Of a DNA stretch of 64,000 bases, positions 18,306 to 31,713 are shown in pieces (positions within the stretch are counted from its first letter, which is position 1; each line of letters opens with the position of its first letter). A program made the position numbers and the translations under genes. The notes under the pieces were generated by a model. The model had not been told where the DNA came from. It did no database searches and worked only from the letters and a program-made list of their open reading frames with translations. The stretch lies in contig NZ_LMDC01000001.1 in NCBI RefSeq assembly GCF_001425705.1, forward strand, positions 124,001 through 188,000, in the 5' to 3' direction. The DNA comes from Pelomonas sp. Root1217 (GTDB taxonomy: Bacteria; Pseudomonadota; Gammaproteobacteria; Burkholderiales; Burkholderiaceae_C).

Positions 18306-19178
18306 TCAGGCCATCAGCGTGCTTTGCACGCGCTGGGTGGTTTGGATGGTCTTCGCCAGCTTCTCGGCGTAGGCCGGGTCGGTGGCGTAGCCCGCCTGCT
18401 GCAGGCCGCGGGCGAAGCCGGCGGCGTTGCCGTTCTGGGCCTGGGCGACGACCTTGGCATAACGGTCGTTGCCGCTGATCAGCTTGGCGTAGTCCTTGAA
18501 AGCCTCGTCGTAGCTGCCGTAGGCGCGGAACTTGGCCGTGACCTTGACGGCCTGGCCGTTGATGACCTCGGTGGTCTTCACGTCGACGGTCTTGCCCTTC
18601 CAGCTCGGCGTCGCCTTGATGCCGAAGATGTTGTGCGAAGGAGTGCCGTCTGCGCCAGTGATCTCACGCTTGCCCCAGCCGCTCTCGTGGGCGGCCTGGG
18701 CCACCATGAAGCTGGCCGGGATGCCGGTGGCGGCGGACGCGGCACGGGCCGCGGCGTCGTGCTTCTGGATGAAGCCTTGCACGTGGTTGGGAATGCCCTT
18801 GGTGGCCAATGCAGGCAGCGCCTGAGCCAGCGTCGTCTGGCTGTTCTTCTTGATGTTCTCGGGCGACAGGTCCTGGATGCCCATCTGGCGCTGCAGCTGC
18901 TTCTGGATGGCCTCCGACAGGCCGCCGGGCAGGCCACTCATCTTGCCGGCGAACTGCGTGTCCAGCATTTCGGTACCGAGTTGGGTTGCGTTGTTGTCCA
19001 GCATGCCGCTGGACAGCGTGGACGCACGCATGCTCTTCATGACCTCCTGCATGAAGAGCGACTCGAACTGCTTGGCCGTCTCGCGGATGCTCGCCTTGGG
19101 GTCGCGTGAGGCCTGGGCCTTCAGCGAATCGAGGCTGCCCAGGCTCTGGCCGGAAATGGACTGGAACGACGACGACAT
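18306..19178 (-). CDS. flgJ: Flagellar rod assembly protein / peptidoglycan hydrolase FlgJ
   Basis: Rod cap and muramidase that opens the cell wall for the growing rod. It has 290 residues. The N-terminal rod-binding domain is at about residues 30-110 (AKQFESLFMQEVMKSMR, LLDTQFAGKMSG-like segment). The C-terminal glucosaminidase-type domain runs from about 150 to the end, with the catalytic glutamate in AAHESGWGKREI. Both domains are present, as is usual in beta- and gammaproteobacteria. Its start overlaps the flgI stop by one base (TGATG), which indicates translational coupling. The dispersed repeat follows it directly. Confidence 0.95.
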   Translation of the reverse strand: MSSSFQSISGQSLGSLDSLKAQASRDPKASIRETAKQFESLFMQEVMKSMRASTLSSGMLDNNATQLGTEMLDTQFAGKMSGLPGGLSEAIQKQLQRQMGIQDLSPENIKKNSQTTLAQALPALATKGIPNHVQGFIQKHDAAARAASAATGIPASFMVAQAAHESGWGKREITGADGTPSHNIFGIKATPSWKGKTVDVKTTEVINGQAVKVTAKFRAYGSYDEAFKDYAKLISGNDRYAKVVAQAQNGNAAGFARGLQQAGYATDPAYAEKLAKTIQTTQRVQSTLMA

Positions 19179-20284
19179 CAGATCACCTCGAGCTCGGCAT
19201 TCAAGGCGCCCGCGCTCTTCATGGCCTGCAAGATCGCGAGCAGATCCTGTGGTGTCGCGCCGAGGGAGTTCAGGGCCTTGACCACGTCCGCCAGGCGCGC
19301 ACCGGCGGCCAGCTGGATGAGGCTGCCGGGCTCCTGGCGGATGGAGATGTCGGCCTTCTCGGCCACCGTGGTCTGTCCGCCGGACAGTGCATTGGGCTGG
19401 CTGATGATGGGCGTTGAGCTGATCGTCACCGACAGGCTGCCGTGGGCGACGGCGCAGGACGACAGCGTGACGGCCTGGTTCATGACGATGGAGCCGGTGC
19501 GCGCGTTGATGACGATGCGGGCCGCAGGTGTCGCCATGTCGATGGCGAGGTTCTCGACGTCGGCCAGGAAGCCGACGCGTTCGTCCGGCGTGGATGGCGC
19601 CTTCACGCGCACGACGCGGCCGTCCAACGCCTGGGCGATGCCCGCGCCCTTGGCCTTGTTGATGGCCTGGGCGACGGCGCGCGCGGTGGCGTAGTCGCTG
19701 CTGTTCAGGTCGAGCTGGATGCTGTCGCCCTGGGACAGGGGCGTGGGCACCGAGCGCTCGACCAGAGCGCCTGCGGGGATGCGGCCGGCGCTGAGGTGGT
19801 TGATCTGCACCTTGGAGCCGCCGGCGGAAGCGCCCGCGCCGCCGACCACGAGGTTGCCCTGCGCGATGGCGTAGATCTGGCCGTCCGCGCCGCGCAGCGG
19901 CGTGGCGACCAGCGTGCCGCCGCGCAGGCTCTTGGCATTGCCGATGGAGGAGACGTTGATGTCCAGCTGCTGGCCGGGCTGGGCAAAAGGCGGCAGCGAG
20001 GCCGTCACCATGACGGCGGCGATATTGCGCGGCTGCATCGTGACGCCCTGGGGCAGCAGCACGCCGAACTGCTGCAGCATGGCCGTCAGGCTCTGGCCGG
20101 TGAAAGGCGCCTGCGTCGTCTGGTCGCCCGTGCCGTCCAGACCGACGATCAGGCCGTAGCCGGTCAACGGGTTGGAACGCACGCCGGCGACCGAGGCGAC
20201 TTCCTTGATGCGGGCGGCCCGGGCAGGAGCGACGGGCGCCAGCACGATGGCCAGGCTGAGGAGGAGGGCTTGCAGGTACTTCAC
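19178..20284 (-). CDS. flgI: Flagellar P-ring protein FlgI
   Basis: Forms the P-ring around the rod in the peptidoglycan layer. The protein has 368 residues with a Sec signal peptide (a hydrophobic stretch ending APARAA) and the FlgI signatures RIKEVASVAGVRSNPLTGYG and GLDGTGDQTTQAPFTGQSL. I chose a GTG start at 20284 because it opens the signal peptide (read as MKYLQALLLS); the open frame extends about 190 codons further but that part has no homology signal and opposes the gene at 20510. It is the first gene of the flgI-J-K-L segment and is separated from flgH by 5 kb of non-flagellar genes, which is unusual. Confidence 0.94.
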   Translation of the reverse strand: MKYLQALLLSLAIVLAPVAPARAARIKEVASVAGVRSNPLTGYGLIVGLDGTGDQTTQAPFTGQSLTAMLQQFGVLLPQGVTMQPRNIAAVMVTASLPPFAQPGQQLDINVSSIGNAKSLRGGTLVATPLRGADGQIYAIAQGNLVVGGAGASAGGSKVQINHLSAGRIPAGALVERSVPTPLSQGDSIQLDLNSSDYATARAVAQAINKAKGAGIAQALDGRVVRVKAPSTPDERVGFLADVENLAIDMATPAARIVINARTGSIVMNQAVTLSSCAVAHGSLSVTISSTPIISQPNALSGGQTTVAEKADISIRQEPGSLIQLAAGARLADVVKALNSLGATPQDLLAILQAMKSAGALNAELEVI

Positions 20285-20509
20285 TCGACCGATTCTGCGG
20301 ATCCTTGAGCGCGCGAAGCCGTCGAAAAGGACGTGGTCAGCCCCGCTTTTCCAAACCACTGGTCGTGGCTGCGGCGAAGGGCGGGGATTTTTCACACCCC
20401 GCCGGGGCTGTAAGGCCGGCGACCTTTGCCCGACCACTGACCACCTGTGAGCACTGAGGCGCCCAGTCAGCACAGCAACTCTCTTCCACCATCCTTTCTG
20501 GAGACTGAT

Positions 20510-20908
20510 ATGACACGCCTTTCCCTGCTGACCCTTGTGCTGGCCACAGCCCTCACCGCCGTCTCGGCGCCCGTCCAGGCCCAGGGCCTGACTCGCGAAC
20601 AGGTCAAGATGGAGCGCGACAGTTTTCTGGCGTTGATGCGCTGGGACGAACTCACCGGCATGTGGGTGCTGAAGTCCGGCATGGAGCCGCCCAAGGGTGT
20701 CATGTCCCGCGCCGAGGTTCTGGCGATGCGCGACCAGTTCCTGCGCATGAATGTCTACGACGACACCGTCGGCAGCTGGGTGCCGATCAAGGCGCCACGC
20801 GACATGAGCACGTTGACGCGTGAGCAGGTCAACATGGAAACGCTGCGCTTTTTGATGATGCATCGCTACGACGAGCAGCGCAACGAGTGGGTCAGCAAGA
20901 TGCGCTGA
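20510..20908 (+). CDS. Exported protein made of three 37-38 residue repeats
   Basis: Protein of 132 residues with a Sec signal peptide (cleavage probably after APVQA at residue 24). The mature part consists of three tandem units at residues 27-64, 65-101 and 102-132. Each follows the pattern [LM][ST]R-x-x-V-x-x-M, then FL-x-[ML], then [WY]D[ED] and a closing WV: LTREQVKME...MWV, MSRAEVLAM...SWV, LTREQVNME...EWV. I do not recognise the family; the TREQV beginning faintly recalls DUF4148-type small exported proteins. The start has a GGAGAC ribosome site about seven bases upstream. A strong terminator follows. It sits in the block that separates flgI from flgH. Confidence 0.85.
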   Translation: MTRLSLLTLVLATALTAVSAPVQAQGLTREQVKMERDSFLALMRWDELTGMWVLKSGMEPPKGVMSRAEVLAMRDQFLRMNVYDDTVGSWVPIKAPRDMSTLTREQVNMETLRFLMMHRYDEQRNEWVSKMR

Positions 20909-20939
20909 GCCCCAGCCCTGTCAGAGCAAACAGGAAATG

Positions 20940-20968
20940 GATGCCCGACCGCTTGGTCGGGCATCTTT
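20940..20968 (+). terminator. Rho-independent terminator after the repeat protein
   Basis: Perfect 11 bp stem (GATGCCCGACC with GGTCGGGCATC) and a GCTT loop, followed by TTT. It lies 31 bases after the stop codon at 20908. Confidence 0.85.
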
Positions 20969-21208
20969 CGTGGACGTCTCCGTGGACGTCTGCAAGGTCC
21001 CGCTAAGCCCTTGGGCAAGCGTGCGTGAGATCCTGTCAATCCCGACTTTCGGCCCGCCGTCGATAGCTGGCGGCCACGACGTCCGCGCCGGCTCAGCGGC
21101 GCTGATAAACGTTTTCCCGCATTGGAGCCAATTGCAGCCGTTTGAGAGCAATTAGCGGTTAAGCGGCACCCGTTTGGGGAGTGACGTGACAGGTTTCTGA
21201 ATGTGTAT

Positions 21209-21232
21209 ATCGGTAAAGTTTTGCTTACCGAT
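21209..21232. promoter_or_regulatory. Palindromic operator-like site upstream of the glycosyltransferase
   Basis: Perfect 8 bp inverted repeat ATCGGTAA / TTACCGAT with an 8-base spacer, 29 bases upstream of the glycosyltransferase start codon, in locally AT-richer DNA. Spacing and position fit a dimeric regulator site; an RNA hairpin in the leader is the alternative. No regulator can be named. Confidence 0.45.
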
Positions 21233-21261
21233 TCGAGCTGCATTCAGTTGCCAGACCTGCC

Positions 21262-22353
21262 ATGCCCCCGCCCTTCGAACCGTTGACCCTGGTTCATGTC
21301 GTGTTTTCATCCCGCATTGCGGGCGGTGAGCGGCATTGCATCGACCTCGCCAATGCCCAGGCCGCGCTGGGCCATCGTGTCCACGTCATTGGCACGGCCA
21401 ATTCCGCTGTTGCCGCTGCGCTGGCCCCCGCCGTGCGCTTCCATGGGTTGAAACTGCCGCTGCTGCGCGGCTGGCGCGTGGCCACCCTGGCGCGCCGGCT
21501 GAAGGCCGACGTCTGCCATGGCCACCTCGGCCCGGCCTGCAAGGCCGTCGCTCACGCCCGGCCTGCGACCCGCATCGGCACCCTGCATGTCGGCTACAAG
21601 GCCCATCACCATGCACGCCTGGACGGCCTCATCTGCGTGAACCGCGCTCAGTACGAGAGCCTGCCAGAGGGTGACCCGCTGGCCAGCGTCATCTACAACT
21701 GGGCGCCGGAGCGCGACGCCGCTGCCGCCGCCCGTCACACCGATCTGCGCGCTGAACTGCGCCTGGCGCCCGGCCAGCTGCTGGTCGGCAGCGTTGGCCG
21801 CCTGCACCGCAGCAAGGGCATGGACTTGCTGATAGCCGGCTTCAAGGCCCATGCGCCGGCCGACGCCGTGCTGGCCATCCTGGGCGAAGGGCCGGACGAG
21901 GCCGCGCTGAAGCAACTCGCGGAGGGCGACTCGCGCGTGCGCCTGCTGGGCTATCGCGGTGATGTCGATCAGGCGTTGAAATCCTTTGATCTCTTCGTGT
22001 CGCCGTCGCGCGAGGAGGCTTTTCCGCTCGCCATCCTGGAGGCCATGCGCGCCGGGTGCGCCGTGCTGTCCAGTGCCACCCAGGGCCCACGGGAGATGCT
22101 GGCCGGGCAGCCTGCCCGGTTGGTGCCGGTGGGGGATGCCCACGCTCTGGGCTACGCGATGGCCGAGGAACTGGCGCGGTTGCGCAGCCTGCTGCCTCAG
22201 GAGCGCGGCGTGCGTTACGCGACGGCGGCCTACGACCGCATCAATGCGGTTGCCCGCACGCTGGGCTTCTATCGCGACGTGATGCTGCATCAGTCTGGCC
22301 GGGCCAGGGGCTTCGACGCCGAGGGTGAGGTCCACGCCGCCTGGCACGTTTGA
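21262..22353 (+). CDS. Glycosyltransferase, GT4 family
   Basis: Predicted sugar transferase with a GT-B fold, 363 residues. The N-terminal half begins with a strand and glycine-rich loop (VHVVFSSRIAGGERH); the C-terminal nucleotide-sugar domain starts near residue 175 (VGSVGRLHRSKGMDLLI) and has the GT4 E-x7-E motif in SREEAFPLAILEAMRAG at about 250-265. No membrane helix is visible, so it is cytoplasmic or peripheral. Its stop overlaps the start of the next gene (TGATG), which fixes a two-gene unit. The sugar and acceptor are unknown; context suggests a surface glycan or lipid. Confidence 0.88.
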   Translation: MPPPFEPLTLVHVVFSSRIAGGERHCIDLANAQAALGHRVHVIGTANSAVAAALAPAVRFHGLKLPLLRGWRVATLARRLKADVCHGHLGPACKAVAHARPATRIGTLHVGYKAHHHARLDGLICVNRAQYESLPEGDPLASVIYNWAPERDAAAAARHTDLRAELRLAPGQLLVGSVGRLHRSKGMDLLIAGFKAHAPADAVLAILGEGPDEAALKQLAEGDSRVRLLGYRGDVDQALKSFDLFVSPSREEAFPLAILEAMRAGCAVLSSATQGPREMLAGQPARLVPVGDAHALGYAMAEELARLRSLLPQERGVRYATAAYDRINAVARTLGFYRDVMLHQSGRARGFDAEGEVHAAWHV

Positions 22354-23282
22354 TGTTCAAGCGGCCGCGCACCGACTTCTGGCAGGTCGGCATCGTCCCT
22401 GTTCCCATTGAAGACATCGATGCCGGCCGGCTGAGCGCCGCCAGGGAGCGCATCACATGGTTGCCCGATGCCGGCCGCTGGCGCTACCTGGCCGACCCTT
22501 TCGGCCTGGTGCGTGGAGACGCCCTGCACGTGTTCGTCGAGGCCTTCGACTACCGCGTCAAGCGTGCCACCATCGAGCGCCACGAGTTCGGCCTGCCGGA
22601 CCTGGCCTGGCGCCGCCACTCGACAGTGCTGGACCGGCCCTTCCACCTGTCCTATCCCCAGGTCTTCGAGCATGACGGCGAGACCTGGATGGTGCCGGAG
22701 AGCTACCAGGCCGGTGAGATTGCCCTCTACCGCGCCTGCGACAGCTCCCTCGATCACTGGGAACGCGAATGTGCCTTGCTGAGCGGCCTGCCCGGGGCGG
22801 ATGCGTCCGTCATCGAGCATGAGGGGCGTTGGTGGATGTTCTACACCCTGGTCGGGCCGGGAGCGCGCGACCAGCGTGAGCTGCACATCGCCCATGCACC
22901 TGCATTGGTCGGGCCCTGGGTGCCACTGCCCGCCAACCCGGTGCGCGTGAACCGCGAAGGTGCCCGCCCGGCCGGCCGGCCCTTCATCGGCCGTGACGGC
23001 GTGCTGACCCTTCCGGTGCAGGACTGCTCCACCGGCTATGGCGGCGCGACGCGCCTGCTGCGTTTTCCGCGCCTGACGCCCGGGCAGGTCGAGATCGAGG
23101 CGGGCCCTGAGCGGCTGACGGGCGATCTGGTCAGCGACAGCCACCAGGCCGGCCTGCACACACTGACGGGCTGCGGCGGTTACACGCTCATCGACGTGAA
23201 GCGCATCGACCGCTCGCGGGGCAAGCAGTGGTTGGATCTGAAACGTCGCTTTACACGGATAGGGCGCCTGTTGGATCGCTGA
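22353..23282 (+). CDS. GINT1-like beta-propeller domain protein, probable glycan enzyme
   Basis: Protein of 309 residues that resembles the N-terminal domain of glucosamine inositolphosphorylceramide transferase-like proteins, a five-bladed propeller related to glycosyl hydrolase folds. Recurrent blade-like segments are visible: YLADPFGLVRGDALHVFVE, LSYPQVFEHDGETWMVPES, ASVIEHEGRWWMFYT. No signal peptide. The ATG at 22353 overlaps the stop of the glycosyltransferase, so the pair is translationally coupled and should act in the same glycan pathway. In other genomes this domain is often attached to formyltransferase or glycosyltransferase modules; here it stands alone. The reaction is not known. 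Confidence 0.72.
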   Translation: MFKRPRTDFWQVGIVPVPIEDIDAGRLSAARERITWLPDAGRWRYLADPFGLVRGDALHVFVEAFDYRVKRATIERHEFGLPDLAWRRHSTVLDRPFHLSYPQVFEHDGETWMVPESYQAGEIALYRACDSSLDHWERECALLSGLPGADASVIEHEGRWWMFYTLVGPGARDQRELHIAHAPALVGPWVPLPANPVRVNREGARPAGRPFIGRDGVLTLPVQDCSTGYGGATRLLRFPRLTPGQVEIEAGPERLTGDLVSDSHQAGLHTLTGCGGYTLIDVKRIDRSRGKQWLDLKRRFTRIGRLLDR

Positions 23283-23330
23283 GACGCCGCCCGCACACAC
23301 CTGGGCCGCGCAGGTCTACCATGGCTCTTC

Positions 23331-24596
23331 ATGAGCCCCCAGCCCCCTTTTAGCGAGCGCATCGCCGCGCTGACGGCGGCCCTGGAGCCCCAGGTCATCG
23401 CCTGGCGGCGCGACCTGCACCAGCACCCCGAGCTCGGCAACCGCGAATTCCGCACCGCATCCGTCGTCGCCGAGCATCTGCGCAGCCTGGGCTTTGACGA
23501 GGTCAAGACGGGCATCGCCCACACGGGTGTCGTCGGCCTGCTCAAGGGGGGCCTGGCCGGTGGTGTCGTCGCGCTGCGGGCCGACATGGATGGCCTGCCG
23601 GTCACCGAAGAAGTGGAGCTGCCGTTCGCATCCAAGGCCCGCGCGGTATGGAACGGTGAGGAGGTCGGCGTCATGCATGCCTGCGGGCATGACTGCCACG
23701 TCGCCATCCTGATGGGCGTTGCCAGCATCCTGGCCAGCCTGCGCGCCGACCTTCCCGGCACGGTCAAATTCATCTTCCAGCCGGCCGAGGAGATGCCACC
23801 CGAAGGCGAGGAGGGCGGGGCGGCGCTGATGATCAAGGAAGGCGTGCTGGAAAGCCCGACGCCCAGCGCCATCTTTGGGCTGCATGTCACCTCGCGCCAG
23901 CCGGCCGGTGTCATCGGCTACCGGCCCGGGCCGACGATGGCGAGCAGCGACAGGCTCAAGATCACCGTGCAGGGCAAGCAGACCCATGGCGCCGCGCCGT
24001 GGCTGGGCATCGATCCCATCGTCACGTCCGCGCAGATCGTGCTGGGCCTGCAAACCATCGTCAGCCGCACGCTCGACCTGAACCGCGAACCGGCCGTCGT
24101 GACCATCGGCGCGATCAAGGGCGGCGTGCGCGAGAACATCATCCCGGACTCGGTCGAGATGCGCGGCACGATCCGCAGCTTCGACGAGGGCATGCGCGAG
24201 GCCATCCATGAGCGCGTGACCCAGCTGGCCGAGGGCATCTCGGCCGCGTCACGCGCGACGTGCAAGGTCTGCATCACGCGCAACTACCCCGTCACGCGCA
24301 ACGATCCGGTGCTCACCGAGCAGATGGTGCCGACGCTGACCCGCGTCGCCAGCACCGGCCCGAGGCCCATGGGCATCGAGGTCGTGCCCAAGGCGACGGG
24401 CGCGGAGGACTTCTCCTTCTTCCAGCGCCTGATCCCCGGCCTGTTTTTCTTCGTTGGCGTGACGCCGCCGGACATTGAGCCTAGCAAGGCCTACTCCAAC
24501 CATTCGCCGCGATTCATCGTCGATGAACGTGGGCTGGAGGTGGGCGTGCGCGCACTGGCCAATCTGGCGGTCGACTACCTGGCCAGCAAGGCTTGA
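23331..24596 (+). CDS. M20 family metallo-amidohydrolase (hippurate hydrolase-like)
   Basis: Zinc-dependent amidase of 421 residues that should hydrolyse N-acyl amino acids or similar amides in the cytoplasm. Metal-site motifs are visible: RADMDGLPV, MHACGHDCHVA, the acidic PAEEMPPEGEEGG segment and the late AEDFSFF. The dimerization domain lies between about residues 190 and 310 (TVQGKQTHGAAPWLGIDP). Length and motifs fit the amidohydrolase/HipO subfamily; substrate cannot be assigned. It starts 48 bases after the GINT1-like gene on the same strand. Its last 22 bases overlap the 3' end of the convergent gene at 24575. Confidence 0.92.
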   Translation: MSPQPPFSERIAALTAALEPQVIAWRRDLHQHPELGNREFRTASVVAEHLRSLGFDEVKTGIAHTGVVGLLKGGLAGGVVALRADMDGLPVTEEVELPFASKARAVWNGEEVGVMHACGHDCHVAILMGVASILASLRADLPGTVKFIFQPAEEMPPEGEEGGAALMIKEGVLESPTPSAIFGLHVTSRQPAGVIGYRPGPTMASSDRLKITVQGKQTHGAAPWLGIDPIVTSAQIVLGLQTIVSRTLDLNREPAVVTIGAIKGGVRENIIPDSVEMRGTIRSFDEGMREAIHERVTQLAEGISAASRATCKVCITRNYPVTRNDPVLTEQMVPTLTRVASTGPRPMGIEVVPKATGAEDFSFFQRLIPGLFFFVGVTPPDIEPSKAYSNHSPRFIVDERGLEVGVRALANLAVDYLASKA

Positions 24597-25027
24597 TCAG
24601 GTGATTCTTGCGAGGCGCCGTTATCACGCAGGCGTCTCAGTTTATCGAGCGTCTCGACCGTCTTTTCATCCGGTTCAGGCGCATCCCACCGCCACGTCAT
24701 TGATCCGCCGCAGAGCCCTACATGACGATTCTCTTGAATAAAGAAGAGATACGTTTGACCTGGACTCAGTGCAATGTCGTGCACCTCCGACGTGGAGTAG
24801 ACGTCATCCCGATTGACCCCAGACTGCTTGAAGGACTCTAAGACTACGTACTTAGCTATGTACTTCGCACCGTATCGCCCCTCACCTTCCTTTTTCGTCT
24901 CGGTGACGCGAACAATCATCACTTCTTGAGCGCGCTGGAATTGTCTCTCCAGGGTCATCGAAATGCACATGGCCGAAGCGGTGCCCTGGTTTAGAAATAG
25001 GGCCAAAGCAATCGCGATGTACTTCAT
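24575..25027 (-). CDS. Small exported protein, possible TIMP/NTR-like fold
   Basis: Protein of 150 residues with a signal peptide ending near SASAM-type residues (GTASAMCIS), so a cysteine sits almost at the mature N-terminus. The pattern of an N-terminal cysteine, a VMIVRVTET strand, a VLESFKQSG segment, TYLFFIQ and a later CGGS resembles bacterial proteins with a netrin/TIMP-like domain; this is a weak fold guess. Base composition is clearly less GC-rich than the neighbours, suggesting recent acquisition. Its 3' end overlaps the end of the amidohydrolase gene by 22 bases in opposite orientation. Function unknown. Confidence 0.7.
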   Translation of the reverse strand: MKYIAIALALFLNQGTASAMCISMTLERQFQRAQEVMIVRVTETKKEGEGRYGAKYIAKYVVLESFKQSGVNRDDVYSTSEVHDIALSPGQTYLFFIQENRHVGLCGGSMTWRWDAPEPDEKTVETLDKLRRLRDNGASQESPDQALLAR

Positions 25028-25045
25028 TGGGTGTCAACGCTTGAG

Positions 25046-25086
25046 TGCAGCCGACCAGCCAGCGGGGTTGGCGCTGGTCGGCTGCA
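25046..25086. other. Strong 14 bp hairpin between flgH and the small exported protein
   Basis: Perfect 14 bp stem (TGCAGCCGACCAGC with GCTGGTCGGCTGCA) around a 13-base loop. It lies downstream of flgH and 19 bases upstream of the exported-protein start. No T-run follows on the minus strand, so it could be an imperfect end signal for the flgB-H transcript or a leader structure. Confidence 0.6.
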
Positions 25087-25291
25087 ATGAATGGTGAGAC
25101 CGCCGCATGAAGTGCCTCAGACCCGCCCTTGATGACCGGACTTTGCCGAGCACCGATGCTGGTCACCGCATCGTAGTCGCGAAGGGTGGACCGGTCCTGG
25201 CAGCGAACTACCACCCGTGGCCTGCGCGCTGATCAGCGGCAATGGCAAGGGCTGCGCAGAGGGCACTTCTGAGCGTGCCTGCGCCGCCCGC

Positions 25292-25960
25292 TCAGCTCGG
25301 CGCAATATTGAGGAAGAAGCGCGACAGCCAACCCACCGCGTGAGCGTCCGCCGCCGCGCCGCGACCGCGCTGTTCGATGCGCACATTGGCCACCGACGTC
25401 GATGGCACGGCATTGCCCTGGGCAATCATGCGCGGGTCAACCTGGCCGGAGAAGCGCAGCACGTCGACATTGCGGTTCACGCCGATCTGCTTTTCGCCGC
25501 TGATCATCAGGTGGCCGTTGGGCAGCACACCGGTCACGACGGCCGTGATGGCGCCGGTGAACTCGTTGGTGTTCTGGTTGCTGCCCTTGCCCTTGTTGTC
25601 GTTGGAGGAGGTTGCCTCGGCGGTGGCTCGGGCGAAGGCCTTGGGCGAGATGCCCGGCACGGCGCTGATGCCGGCCGACAGGCCGCCGGTCTTGCTCAGC
25701 TCGCTGGTGCTCGTCTGCGAAGCCGAGACGCGTTCGGTGATGTTGACGGTCAGCGTGTCGCCGACGAGGCGTGCGCGGTGGTCTTCGAACAGCGGACGGT
25801 AGGCGGCGGCCTGGTAGATGGAGCCGTTGGTGGGCACCATGGCCTGGACCGGCGGCAGGTTGACGACCGGCGTGTGGGCCAGTTCGACCTGGGGCTCGGG
25901 GTAGGGCGTGGCGCAGCCGGCGAGCAGGGCGGGGATGGCGATCAGGGCGAGGTACTTCAT
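25292..25960 (-). CDS. flgH: Flagellar L-ring lipoprotein FlgH
   Basis: Outer-membrane lipoprotein that forms the L-ring bushing around the rod. It has 222 residues, a lipobox LLAGC with the cysteine at residue 15, and FlgH signatures (GSIYQAAAYRPLFEDHRAR, VGDTLTVNITE, MISGEKQIGVN, FSGQVDPRMI). It lies 10 bases downstream of flgG at the end of the flgB-to-flgH run. In most relatives flgI follows directly; here the next gene on this strand is an unrelated small exported protein and flgI is about 5 kb away. Confidence 0.96.
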   Translation of the reverse strand: MKYLALIAIPALLAGCATPYPEPQVELAHTPVVNLPPVQAMVPTNGSIYQAAAYRPLFEDHRARLVGDTLTVNITERVSASQTSTSELSKTGGLSAGISAVPGISPKAFARATAEATSSNDNKGKGSNQNTNEFTGAITAVVTGVLPNGHLMISGEKQIGVNRNVDVLRFSGQVDPRMIAQGNAVPSTSVANVRIEQRGRGAAADAHAVGWLSRFFLNIAPS

Positions 25961-25970
25961 GGCGATTGCC

Positions 25971-26753
25971 TTAGATCTGGGCGAGCTTCTGCAGCATCTG
26001 GTCGGAGGTCTGCACGGCCTTGGAGTTCAGCTCATAGGCGCGCTGGGTCTGGATCATCTGCACCAGTTCCTCGACGACGTTGACGTTGGAAGTCTCGACG
26101 AAGCCCTGTTGCACCGCGCCAATGCCGTTGTTGTTGGGTGAGCCGGTGTTGGGCGTGCCGCTGGCGGCCGTTTCGGTGAACAGGTTCTGGCCCTTGGGGT
26201 CCAGGCCGGCCGGATTCACGAAGGTGGCGAGCTGCAACTGGCCGACGGTCTGCGGCGCAGCTTGGCCGGGCAGCGTGACGCTGACGGTGCCGTCGTTGCC
26301 GATGGTCAGGCTTTGCGCGTTCTGCGGGATCGTGATGCCGGGCAGCAGCGTGTAGCCGTTGTTGGTGACCATCTGGCCATTGGCATTGAGCTGGAACGAC
26401 CCGTCGCGCGTGTAGGCGGTCGTGCCGTCTGGCTGTTGGATCTGGAAGAAGCCATCGCCCTTGATGGCCAGGTCCAGGTTGTTGCTGGTCTGCTGCAGAT
26501 TGCCCTGCGTGTAGATGCGGGCAGTGGCCACCGGGCGCACGCCCAGGCCGACTTGCAGGCCGGTGGGCAGCGTGGTCTGGTCGGTGCTGTTGGCACCGGC
26601 CTGGCGCATGTTCTGGTAGATCAGGTCCTCGAAGACGGCGTGCGAGCGCTTGTAGCCATTGGTGGCGACGTTGGCGAGGTTGTGCGAGATGTTGTCCAGC
26701 TGGGTTTGCTGGGCTTCCATGCCGGTCTTGGCGATCCAGAGCGAGCGCATCAT
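25971..26753 (-). CDS. flgG: Flagellar distal rod protein FlgG
   Basis: Forms the distal rod. It has 260 residues, the usual size. The N-terminal rod motif ([18 protein letters not shown]) and the C-terminal motif ([20 protein letters not shown]) are intact, and the central strand-rich domain contains [20 protein letters not shown]. It lies two bases from flgF and ten bases from flgH and is exported through the flagellar type III apparatus. Confidence 0.97.
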
Positions 26754-31297: not shown

Positions 31298-31324
31298 TCA
31301 AGTTCCTAGGCCTGGGGCCGATAC
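31298..31324 (+). promoter_or_regulatory. Sigma-28 (FliA) promoter for flgM
   Basis: TCAAGTTC (31298-31305) and GCCGATAC (31317-31324) are separated by exactly 11 bases. Both boxes are close to the FliA consensus TCAAGTTT/GCCGATAA. The site is 59 bases upstream of the flgM start, which also has a GGAGA ribosome site. FlgM is normally expressed from a FliA promoter, so biology and sequence agree. Confidence 0.85.
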
Positions 31325-31383: not shown

Positions 31384-31713
31384 ATGAAGATCGGTAACAG
31401 CCCAGACGGCACCGCCAGCCCGCCCAAGGCCGAGCGCCCCGCCTCGCGCAAACCCGAGGCCAGCACGGCCGACGTCGTCCGTCAGACCGCCCAGGCCGCC
31501 ACCTCCGCGCCCAGCGCCCAGGTCGCCATTTCCAACACCGCCAAGCTGGCTGCCAGTGGCAGCGCCGACGACGGCAGCTTTGACGCCGCCAAGGTCGCAC
31601 GCATCTCCAAGGCCATCAGTGAGGGTAAGTTCACGGTCAACGCGAACGCCATCGCCGACAAGCTGGTCTCAAATGCGCAAGAATTGCTGGACAGCCGCGT
31701 CAATAAGCACTGA
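31384..31713 (+). CDS. flgM: Negative regulator of flagellin synthesis FlgM (anti-sigma-28)
   Basis: Binds FliA and holds it inactive until the hook is finished and FlgM is exported. The protein has 109 residues, mostly disordered and alanine/serine-rich at the N-terminus, with the FliA-binding helices toward the C-terminus (DAAKVARISKAISEGKFTVN, then ADKLVSNAQELL). The start MKIGNSP is typical. The FliA gene is at the left edge of this window, so both partners are encoded here. flgN begins three bases after the stop. Confidence 0.94.
   Translation: MKIGNSPDGTASPPKAERPASRKPEASTADVVRQTAQAATSAPSAQVAISNTAKLAASGSADDGSFDAAKVARISKAISEGKFTVNANAIADKLVSNAQELLDSRVNKH

Follow-up and report, generated by a model that had tools for sequence, protein, structure and literature searches.

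The flg genes are usually kept together through co-expression. Genomic islands integrate into the 3' ends of protein-coding genes such as icd and guaA, and we know of no report of an island insertion site inside a flagellar operon. The window analyzed here, a stretch of 64,000 nucleotides (nt) from Pelomonas sp. Root1217 (NZ_LMDC01000001.1, positions 124,001 to 188,000), appears to hold such a site. On its minus strand, flgB-C-D-E-F-G-H (30387 to 25292) and flgI-J-K-L (20284 to 14851) are parted by 5,007 nt between the flgH stop and the flgI start, an interval that carries four plus-strand genes and one minus-strand gene. A first-pass annotation of this DNA had described a flg run split by about 5 kb, with five named insert genes lying mostly antisense to flg; open reading frames (ORFs) and Pfam matches confirmed the split and the five genes, and the predominantly antisense orientation was also right. 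We consider it probable that a single insertion into the flgH 3' end took place in the ancestor of the genus, that the insert was trimmed lineage by lineage, that its GT4 glycosyltransferase and propeller genes form one unit, and that the flagellum is a bystander.

Extent of the split in the genus and its relatives

The host genome belongs to the Pelomonas/Roseateles group, as judged from the names of the nearest loci, and the genus was represented by 20 genomes (G numbers) in which flgH-flgI distances were projected from tblastn. Both genes lie on one contig in 19 of the 20, and every one of these 19 loci is split, with gaps of 2,389 to 9,474 nt; in the twentieth, the fragmented assembly G019, flgH and flgI are on different contigs. 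For comparison, the best 80 loci of a candidate list (L numbers) were taken, 12 on contigs of genus genomes and 68 outside the genus. flgH was found in 63 of those 68, with gaps of 19 to 859 nt that are at most 196 nt in 62 of the 63. The five loci without a measured gap are L048, L066 and L071, where flgI is near a contig end, together with L062 (Scleromatobacter humisilvae) and L102 (Curvibacter sp. CHRR-16), where flgI follows flgG and no flgH was called between them. Three genus genomes (G012, G015 and G018) have a second flgH-flgI pair, which stays close (88 to 258 nt between profile matches). Because 19 of 19 genus loci are split while outgroup loci and second pairs are close, the split is old, it extends across the genus wherever it could be tested, and it affects only one flagellar set. 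The earlier statement that most relatives have flgH next to flgI is correct outside the genus, where all 63 measured loci are close, but not inside it.

Two origins had been suggested for the block, a chromosomal rearrangement that set flgI-L beside other genes and a recent horizontal acquisition in this strain. The rearrangement has nothing in its favor except the split itself, and it is refuted by flanking synteny. With the window's genes as queries, outgroup loci L038, L044 and L047 showed the same gene order around an intact flg run, the block alone being missing. The kept order includes an HDOD protein, a PAS kinase and a response regulator beyond flgL (plus a kinase in L038 and L047) and flgA (by position), flgM and others beyond flgB, with flgM itself unmatched in L044. 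Its chance of being right is practically negligible. Recent acquisition could draw on the small exported protein gene, which has a GC content of 0.53 and a third-position GC content (GC3) of 0.61 and occurs at the site in only two of the 19 genomes (G000 and G009). It is contradicted by the site being occupied in all 19 testable genomes, the same order in close relatives that was to have spoken against it. The other four insert genes, moreover, have GC3 values of 0.83 to 0.89, compared to 0.85 to 0.93 in the flg genes, which leaves the small gene alone at 0.61, and the GT4, propeller and M20 genes are under purifying selection and track flg distances. For the block as a whole, recent acquisition is refuted and very improbable as an account of the locus, whereas the small protein alone could be recent. 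A single old and clean insertion common to the whole genus, with content that now varies by lineage, is most likely.

The old junction and the flgI leader

What lies directly in front of flgI ties the locus to its unsplit relatives. A 26-nt element there (Table 1) is matched at or near the flgH-flgI junction in all 20 nearest loci (L036 to L056 less L048), and in no case did any of 100 shuffles match as well. It begins 1 to 2 nt ahead of the flgH stop codon in 19 of the 20 and 151 nt past the stop in L050. Because this element sits at the junctions of the nearest outgroups, the sequence adjoining flgI is, by homology, the old flgH-flgI junction. No second copy of the junction was found downstream of flgH. 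Many of the outgroup junctions (L036 to L056) also show, by eye, a hairpin-like GGTCG...CGACC before the flgI ATG that seems to have been lost in the genus.

The junction is part of a 75-nt leader that is conserved in the 19 genomes compared (G019 left out), and this conservation is observed to stop sharply, with none of the 125 columns further upstream reaching 90%. Within the leader, 45 nt resemble the last 15 codons of flgH. Neither the 252 other registers nor 20,000 shuffles produced a consensus match equal to the one given in Table 1, which was taken in the register fixed by the junction. In the individual genomes, the average score against outgroup flgH ends was 20.9 to 24.0 of 45 positions, better than the usual best of the other leader registers, and the leader of G019 scored 20 of 45 against outgroup flgH, a value reached by 1 of 354 registers. 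The blocks upstream of the relic scored 6/15, 10/15 and 4/15, giving no clear match past 45 nt. We think it quite probable that this stretch is a displaced remnant of the ancestral flgH, a confidence lowered from high to moderately high owing to the weaker genome-by-genome rows. The position of this remnant, ahead of flgI, makes the flgH 3' end the probable landing point of the insertion, with flgH itself restored on the far side of the block. When the relic was first compared with the genus's own flgH ends it did not rise above the null; it was revived with outgroup ends in a fixed register.

These observations suggest how the split operon may have survived. After the insertion, flgH would still have been functional on its side of the block, while flgI would have kept the old junction and the displaced remnant ahead of it; these would now serve as the flgI leader and presumably as its promoter region, a role that we infer, as we do the mode of entry. 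flgI-L would thereby no longer depend on the flgB promoter. Although a promoter would most naturally lie in the conserved leader, no consensus site is convincing: a sigma-28-like TCAAG-N14-GTCGA at 20285-20308 would have its -10 overlapping the flgI start codon and is weaker than the site at flgM, and no sigma-70-like site was found at 19000-26500, where 0.9 were expected. The earlier view that flgI needs its own promoter is borne out to the extent that a control region of its own is probable.

Other signals around the split are side observations. The sigma-28-like site upstream of flgM (31298-31324, plus strand; TCAAGTT...GCCGATAC) has 2 mismatches; the whole genome has four sites with at most 2 mismatches, this one included, and 1 for a reversed control pattern. 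Hairpins within 260 nt after flgH occur in all 19 genomes (best 45-nt window with a free energy, dG, of -20.9 to -30.0) and were not used as evidence, and the window has 3 terminator-like sites where chance predicts 3.3. A strong inverted repeat (25041-25091) lies between flgH and the small protein gene, with 19-nt arms that are 89% complementary and 13 nt apart and a dG of -30.0 in the best 45-nt window. Just past flgH, five of the 19 genomes (G002, G005, G010, G017 and G018; loci L106, L109, L114, L121 and L122) have a GC-rich repeat, CCCCCT...CCCCCTC-AGGGGG, which looks as if it were a dispersed repeat.

The insert genes and their history

Identities of the genes in and next to the insert are given in Table 1. 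flgH, flgI and flgJ were identified by family models and flgM by Pfam at 31384; flgK, flgL and flgG to flgB were named from their order and from translations read by eye.

Table 1. Features at the flgH-flgI split, in window coordinates
Feature	Position	Strand	Basis or remark
flgH	25292-25960	-	Pfam FlgH 187 bits; last gene ahead of the split
Insertion between flgH and flgI	20285-25291		5,007 nt
Small low-GC exported protein, 150 aa	24575-25027	- (strand of flgH)	no Pfam family
M20 amidohydrolase (YxeP/ILR1-like)	23331-24596	+	M20 130 bits; TIGR01891 321.4 bits, cut-off 153.75
GINT1_N-type five-bladed propeller protein, 310 aa	22350-23282	+	PF24793 109.4 bits, cut-off 27
GT4 glycosyltransferase	21262-22353	+	Pfam Glyco_trans_1_4 97.6 bits, cut-off 27
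Genus-conserved element upstream of GT4, GACAGGTTTCTGAATGTG...TAAAGTTT	21188-21221	+	17 genus cassettes compared
DUF4148-like exported protein, 153 aa, three repeats	20447-20908	+	DUF4148 23.9 bits, under the 27-bit cut-off
Probable relic of the last 15 codons of ancestral flgH	20308-20352	-	consensus 26/45 vs outgroup flgH ends
Conserved flgI leader, 75 nt	20285-20359	-	38/75 columns at least 90% conserved
Retained pre-insertion flgH-flgI junction element, 26 nt	20284-20309	-	match to nearest outgroup junctions
flgI	19178-20284	-	Pfam FlgI 462 bits; first gene past the split
flgJ	18306-19178	-	TIGR02541 271 bits

The insert genes are tightly packed at two points. The GT4 and propeller frames share 22350-22353, the propeller gene starting at 22350 (TTG) or 22353 (ATG), and the M20 and small protein genes overlap tail to tail at 24575-24596. 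The three repeats of the DUF4148-like protein were seen in its translation. Content at the site across the 19 genus genomes was taken from gene calling and a tblastn matrix. The GT4 and propeller genes are present in 17 (absent from G004 and G008), M20 in 18 (absent from G012), and the DUF4148 gene in eight. A GntR regulator and an ABC ATPase occur in five genomes, the same five that contain the sequence of a third, permease-like gene with no Pfam match (c4); a further exported protein (c5) is found in five and a CMD-like gene (c6, a sub-threshold match) in three. Lineage-specific genes were found in G003 and G004, the latter with three extra genes (5'-nucleotidase-like, PEP-CTERM and phosphoesterase-like). 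Wherever shared genes are present their order and strand are constant, and G013 has all of them except the small protein. In G019 (L123), flgI is followed by GntR-ABC, a small antitoxin/toxin-like pair, and ilvD-like and xanthine-dehydrogenase-like genes (names by eye).

By parsimony, the ancestral insert would have had the order seen in G013, namely DUF4148, GT4, propeller, CMD-like, GntR-ABC module, M20 and the further exported protein; different lineages would then have lost different parts, the window keeping DUF4148-GT4-propeller-M20. The simplest history is one larger insert from which parts were lost, and some cargo may have been gained separately. Distances of the GT4, propeller and M20 genes correlate with flg distances (Mantel r of 0.79, 0.56 and 0.77, values reached in no more than 2 of 2,000 permutations), and the ratio of nonsynonymous to synonymous substitution (dN/dS) is 0.04 to 0.32 for these genes in the five pairs computed. 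Because they follow flg distances and dN/dS is low, the three genes are vertically inherited and kept by selection. M20 probably came from a different source than the GT4-propeller pair, since a close homologue (E of 1e-100 or better, 48% identity) is present in only one of the 20 nearest outgroup genomes, yet 11 other genomes of the family sample have matches at 69 to 75% identity. No tRNA was found within the window, and no convincing repeats flank the insert to mark its ends. A Pfam scan of the five insert proteins of the window and of nine representatives taken from other genomes detected no integrase or transposase; several lineage-specific ORFs, among them those of G019, lay outside that scan.

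The GT4-propeller pair has a life beyond this site. PF24793 proteins occur in 20 of 250 sampled family genomes, four of them in the genus, and a close GT4 lies beside the propeller gene in 10 of the 16 others. Among the 20 nearest outgroup genomes, 10 have a propeller gene, always next to GT4 and never at flgH-flgI, and 10 have no match; the 10 carriers keep a flgH-flgI gap of 50 to 196 nt. In a class-wide sample of 321 genomes, 15 others match the propeller; every one of these matches is far weaker, and most lie in open frames longer than 500 aa. GT4 is next to the propeller gene in every case where close orthologues were inspected, and the two form a coupled two-gene unit. The 15 cassettes outside the genus (family sample plus the 20 outgroups, five genomes in common) lie at about 10 sites, three of which are common to 3, 3 and 2 genomes (one flank only in part) and seven of which are single. 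Their immediate neighbors in ten contexts look housekeeping or regulatory and none flagellar, as read by eye with families unscanned, and 9 of the 14 cassettes with both neighbors visible are antisense to both.

Cassettes at the flg site form one clade, with support of 0.998 on the branch to the others. Because cassette distances track flg distances (r of 0.93 for 27 genomes and 0.87 for 10 outgroups, with 0 of 2,000 permutations as high), sequence comparison favors vertical inheritance accompanied by moves to new sites rather than transfer between distant lineages. A broader picture is possible but doubtful, in which the pair is nomadic: inherited with the host lineage across the Roseateles group, repeatedly re-sited with no recognizable recombinase, often antisense to its neighbors, and carrying out, through a GT4 enzyme and its GH130-like partner, an undescribed glycoconjugate step. 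Its landing in the flgH 3' end would have split the operon, and the displaced end would have become the flgI promoter. At the flg site, the overlapping GT4 and propeller genes form one unit antisense to flg, with a genus-conserved element upstream. In all 17 genus cassettes, TAAAGTTT is exact and lies 37 to 48 nt upstream of the projected GT4 start; the GACAGG part, GACAGGTTTCTGAATGTG, fits a strict pattern in 11 of the 17. Travel of this element with the cassette is not supported, none of 14 non-genus cassettes having it.

The insert genes might instead be held in place by selection because they serve the flagellum or cell surface, for example, by glycosylating flagellar parts. Such a role would fit the retention of the pair in the flg run by 17 of 19 genus genomes and the presence of flgI in all 10 non-genus carriers compared to 191 of 250 sampled genomes, an excess that is weak and phylogenetically dependent. 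A flagellar role of the pair is nevertheless unlikely because the pair sits at other sites in relatives, with non-flagellar neighbors, and follows their phylogeny; the flagellar linkage wherever present that marks a glycosylation island was not found. Involvement of the flagellum is also unlikely because G004 and G008 keep flgH and flgI with no PF24793 match anywhere in the genome. Neither the GT4 nor the propeller protein has a signal peptide apparent by eye. Taken as an account of why the block is there, service to the flagellum or surface is distinctly improbable. The first-pass proposal of glycan functions linked to the cell surface is upheld in its first half, a glycan role being likely for two genes from their families and folds, and unsupported in its second.

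It is also conceivable, though unlikely, that the flgH-flgI gap is a hot spot that repeatedly took up cargo rather than the site of one trimmed island. Lineage-specific genes in G003 and G004 point that way; the constant order of shared genes, the nearly full set in G013 and the monophyly of the flg-site cassettes point to one island. Several results speak for the hot spot or otherwise weigh against a single ancestral insertion into flgH that already carried the pair. The distances of DUF4148, c5 and the insert gene c3 (8, 5 and 5 genomes) do not clearly track flg. In G019 the stretches read contain GntR-ABC and lack the GT4, propeller and M20 genes, a pattern in which GT4 may have entered later than the first insertion, and the basal placement of this genome has a support of only 0.63. 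Its leader matches the genus consensus at 20 of 45 positions with 7 of 354 registers as high, which is chance level. Among 43 more distant loci, the junction element reached 5 of 100 shuffles or better in only 6. For some outgroups the best wrong register along flgH scores at least as well as the relic rows do, and against the genus's own flgH end the relic scores 16 of 45 (14 to 20 of 48 genome by genome). Neither part of the GT4 upstream element recurs in the 14 non-genus cassettes examined, and the lack of an integrase or transposase in the scanned proteins leaves the mode of entry without a marker.

Comparison with related enzymes and islands

Assignments of enzyme roles rest on families and folds. 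Like the CAZy GT4 enzymes BshA, HepE, PimA/PimB' and WaaG, the window's GT4 protein has GT4 domains and a GT-B fold. Its model (mean confidence, pLDDT, of 89) best matched Staphylococcus aureus BshA (6n1x; Z of 33.9, root-mean-square deviation [rmsd] of 3.0 over 332 residues, 21% identity), with HepE, PimB', PimA and WaaG ranking below. E-x7-E is the motif of CAZy GT4 glycosyltransferases; in the stretch E252-E260, E252 is at least 90% conserved and E260 invariant among 25 aligned sequences. Unlike the named enzymes, the protein is far under every listed NCBIfam GT4 cut-off (best 71 bits, cut-off 409). The M20 protein resembles the TIGR01891 group (YxeP, ILR1-like and CpsA) in exceeding that model's cut-off, and its best solved-structure match is yxeP (1ysj, E of 1e-72), but it differs from CpsA in falling under the CpsA equivalog cut-off (393 vs 500 bits).

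The propeller protein shares its five-bladed fold with GH130, GH62 and GH43 enzymes and differs from them in sequence, at 7 to 16% identity in the listed rows. Its model (pLDDT of 92) best matched the GH130 phosphorylase 5b0q (Z of 21.5, rmsd of 3.1, 247 residues), with Z of about 20 for GH62 and about 19 for GH43. The 50 listed fold matches (Z of 18.2 to 21.5) are mostly glycoside hydrolases and phosphorylases (GH130, GH62, GH43 and GH117), the GH130 matches including mannoside phosphorylases. Six acidic residues (D49, E64, E117, D174, D225 and D282) are invariant in 25 sequences. Plant GINT1 (glucosamine inositolphosphorylceramide transferase) shares the N-terminal domain PF24793 and also has a C-terminal GT64 catalytic part. 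The window protein, unlike it, is a stand-alone propeller, in which Pfam found GINT1_N and a sub-threshold GH43 match only and no GT64 domain.

Most likely, as modeled, the two proteins act on one glycoconjugate in the cytoplasm, built by GT4 and processed by the propeller protein. The GT4 enzyme would use a nucleotide sugar there to form a glycosidic bond, the propeller protein, with its GH130/GH43-type fold, would trim, phosphorolyse or transfer the same glycan, and M20 would independently hydrolyze an N-acyl or peptide bond. The titles and abstract openings surveyed gave no account of a flgH-flgI insertion or of a GT4-GINT1 pair, and as a conserved enzyme couple the pair is experimentally tractable.

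The insertion itself, even if ordinary, is now dated, which corrects its reading as recent. A genus-wide antisense block between the L-ring gene flgH and the P-ring gene flgI offers a natural experiment on how far flagellum assembly depends on operon integrity. If the displaced flgH end does act as a leader, it would show the rescue of a split operon. We see an old, selected insertion whose unusual sides are a probable rescue of flgI by the displaced flgH end and a roaming enzyme pair. The locus differs from islands in gene 3' ends in that no integrase was seen in the scanned proteins and the repeat is strongly decayed, but it resembles them in having an intact target gene on one side and a probable displaced 3' end on the other.

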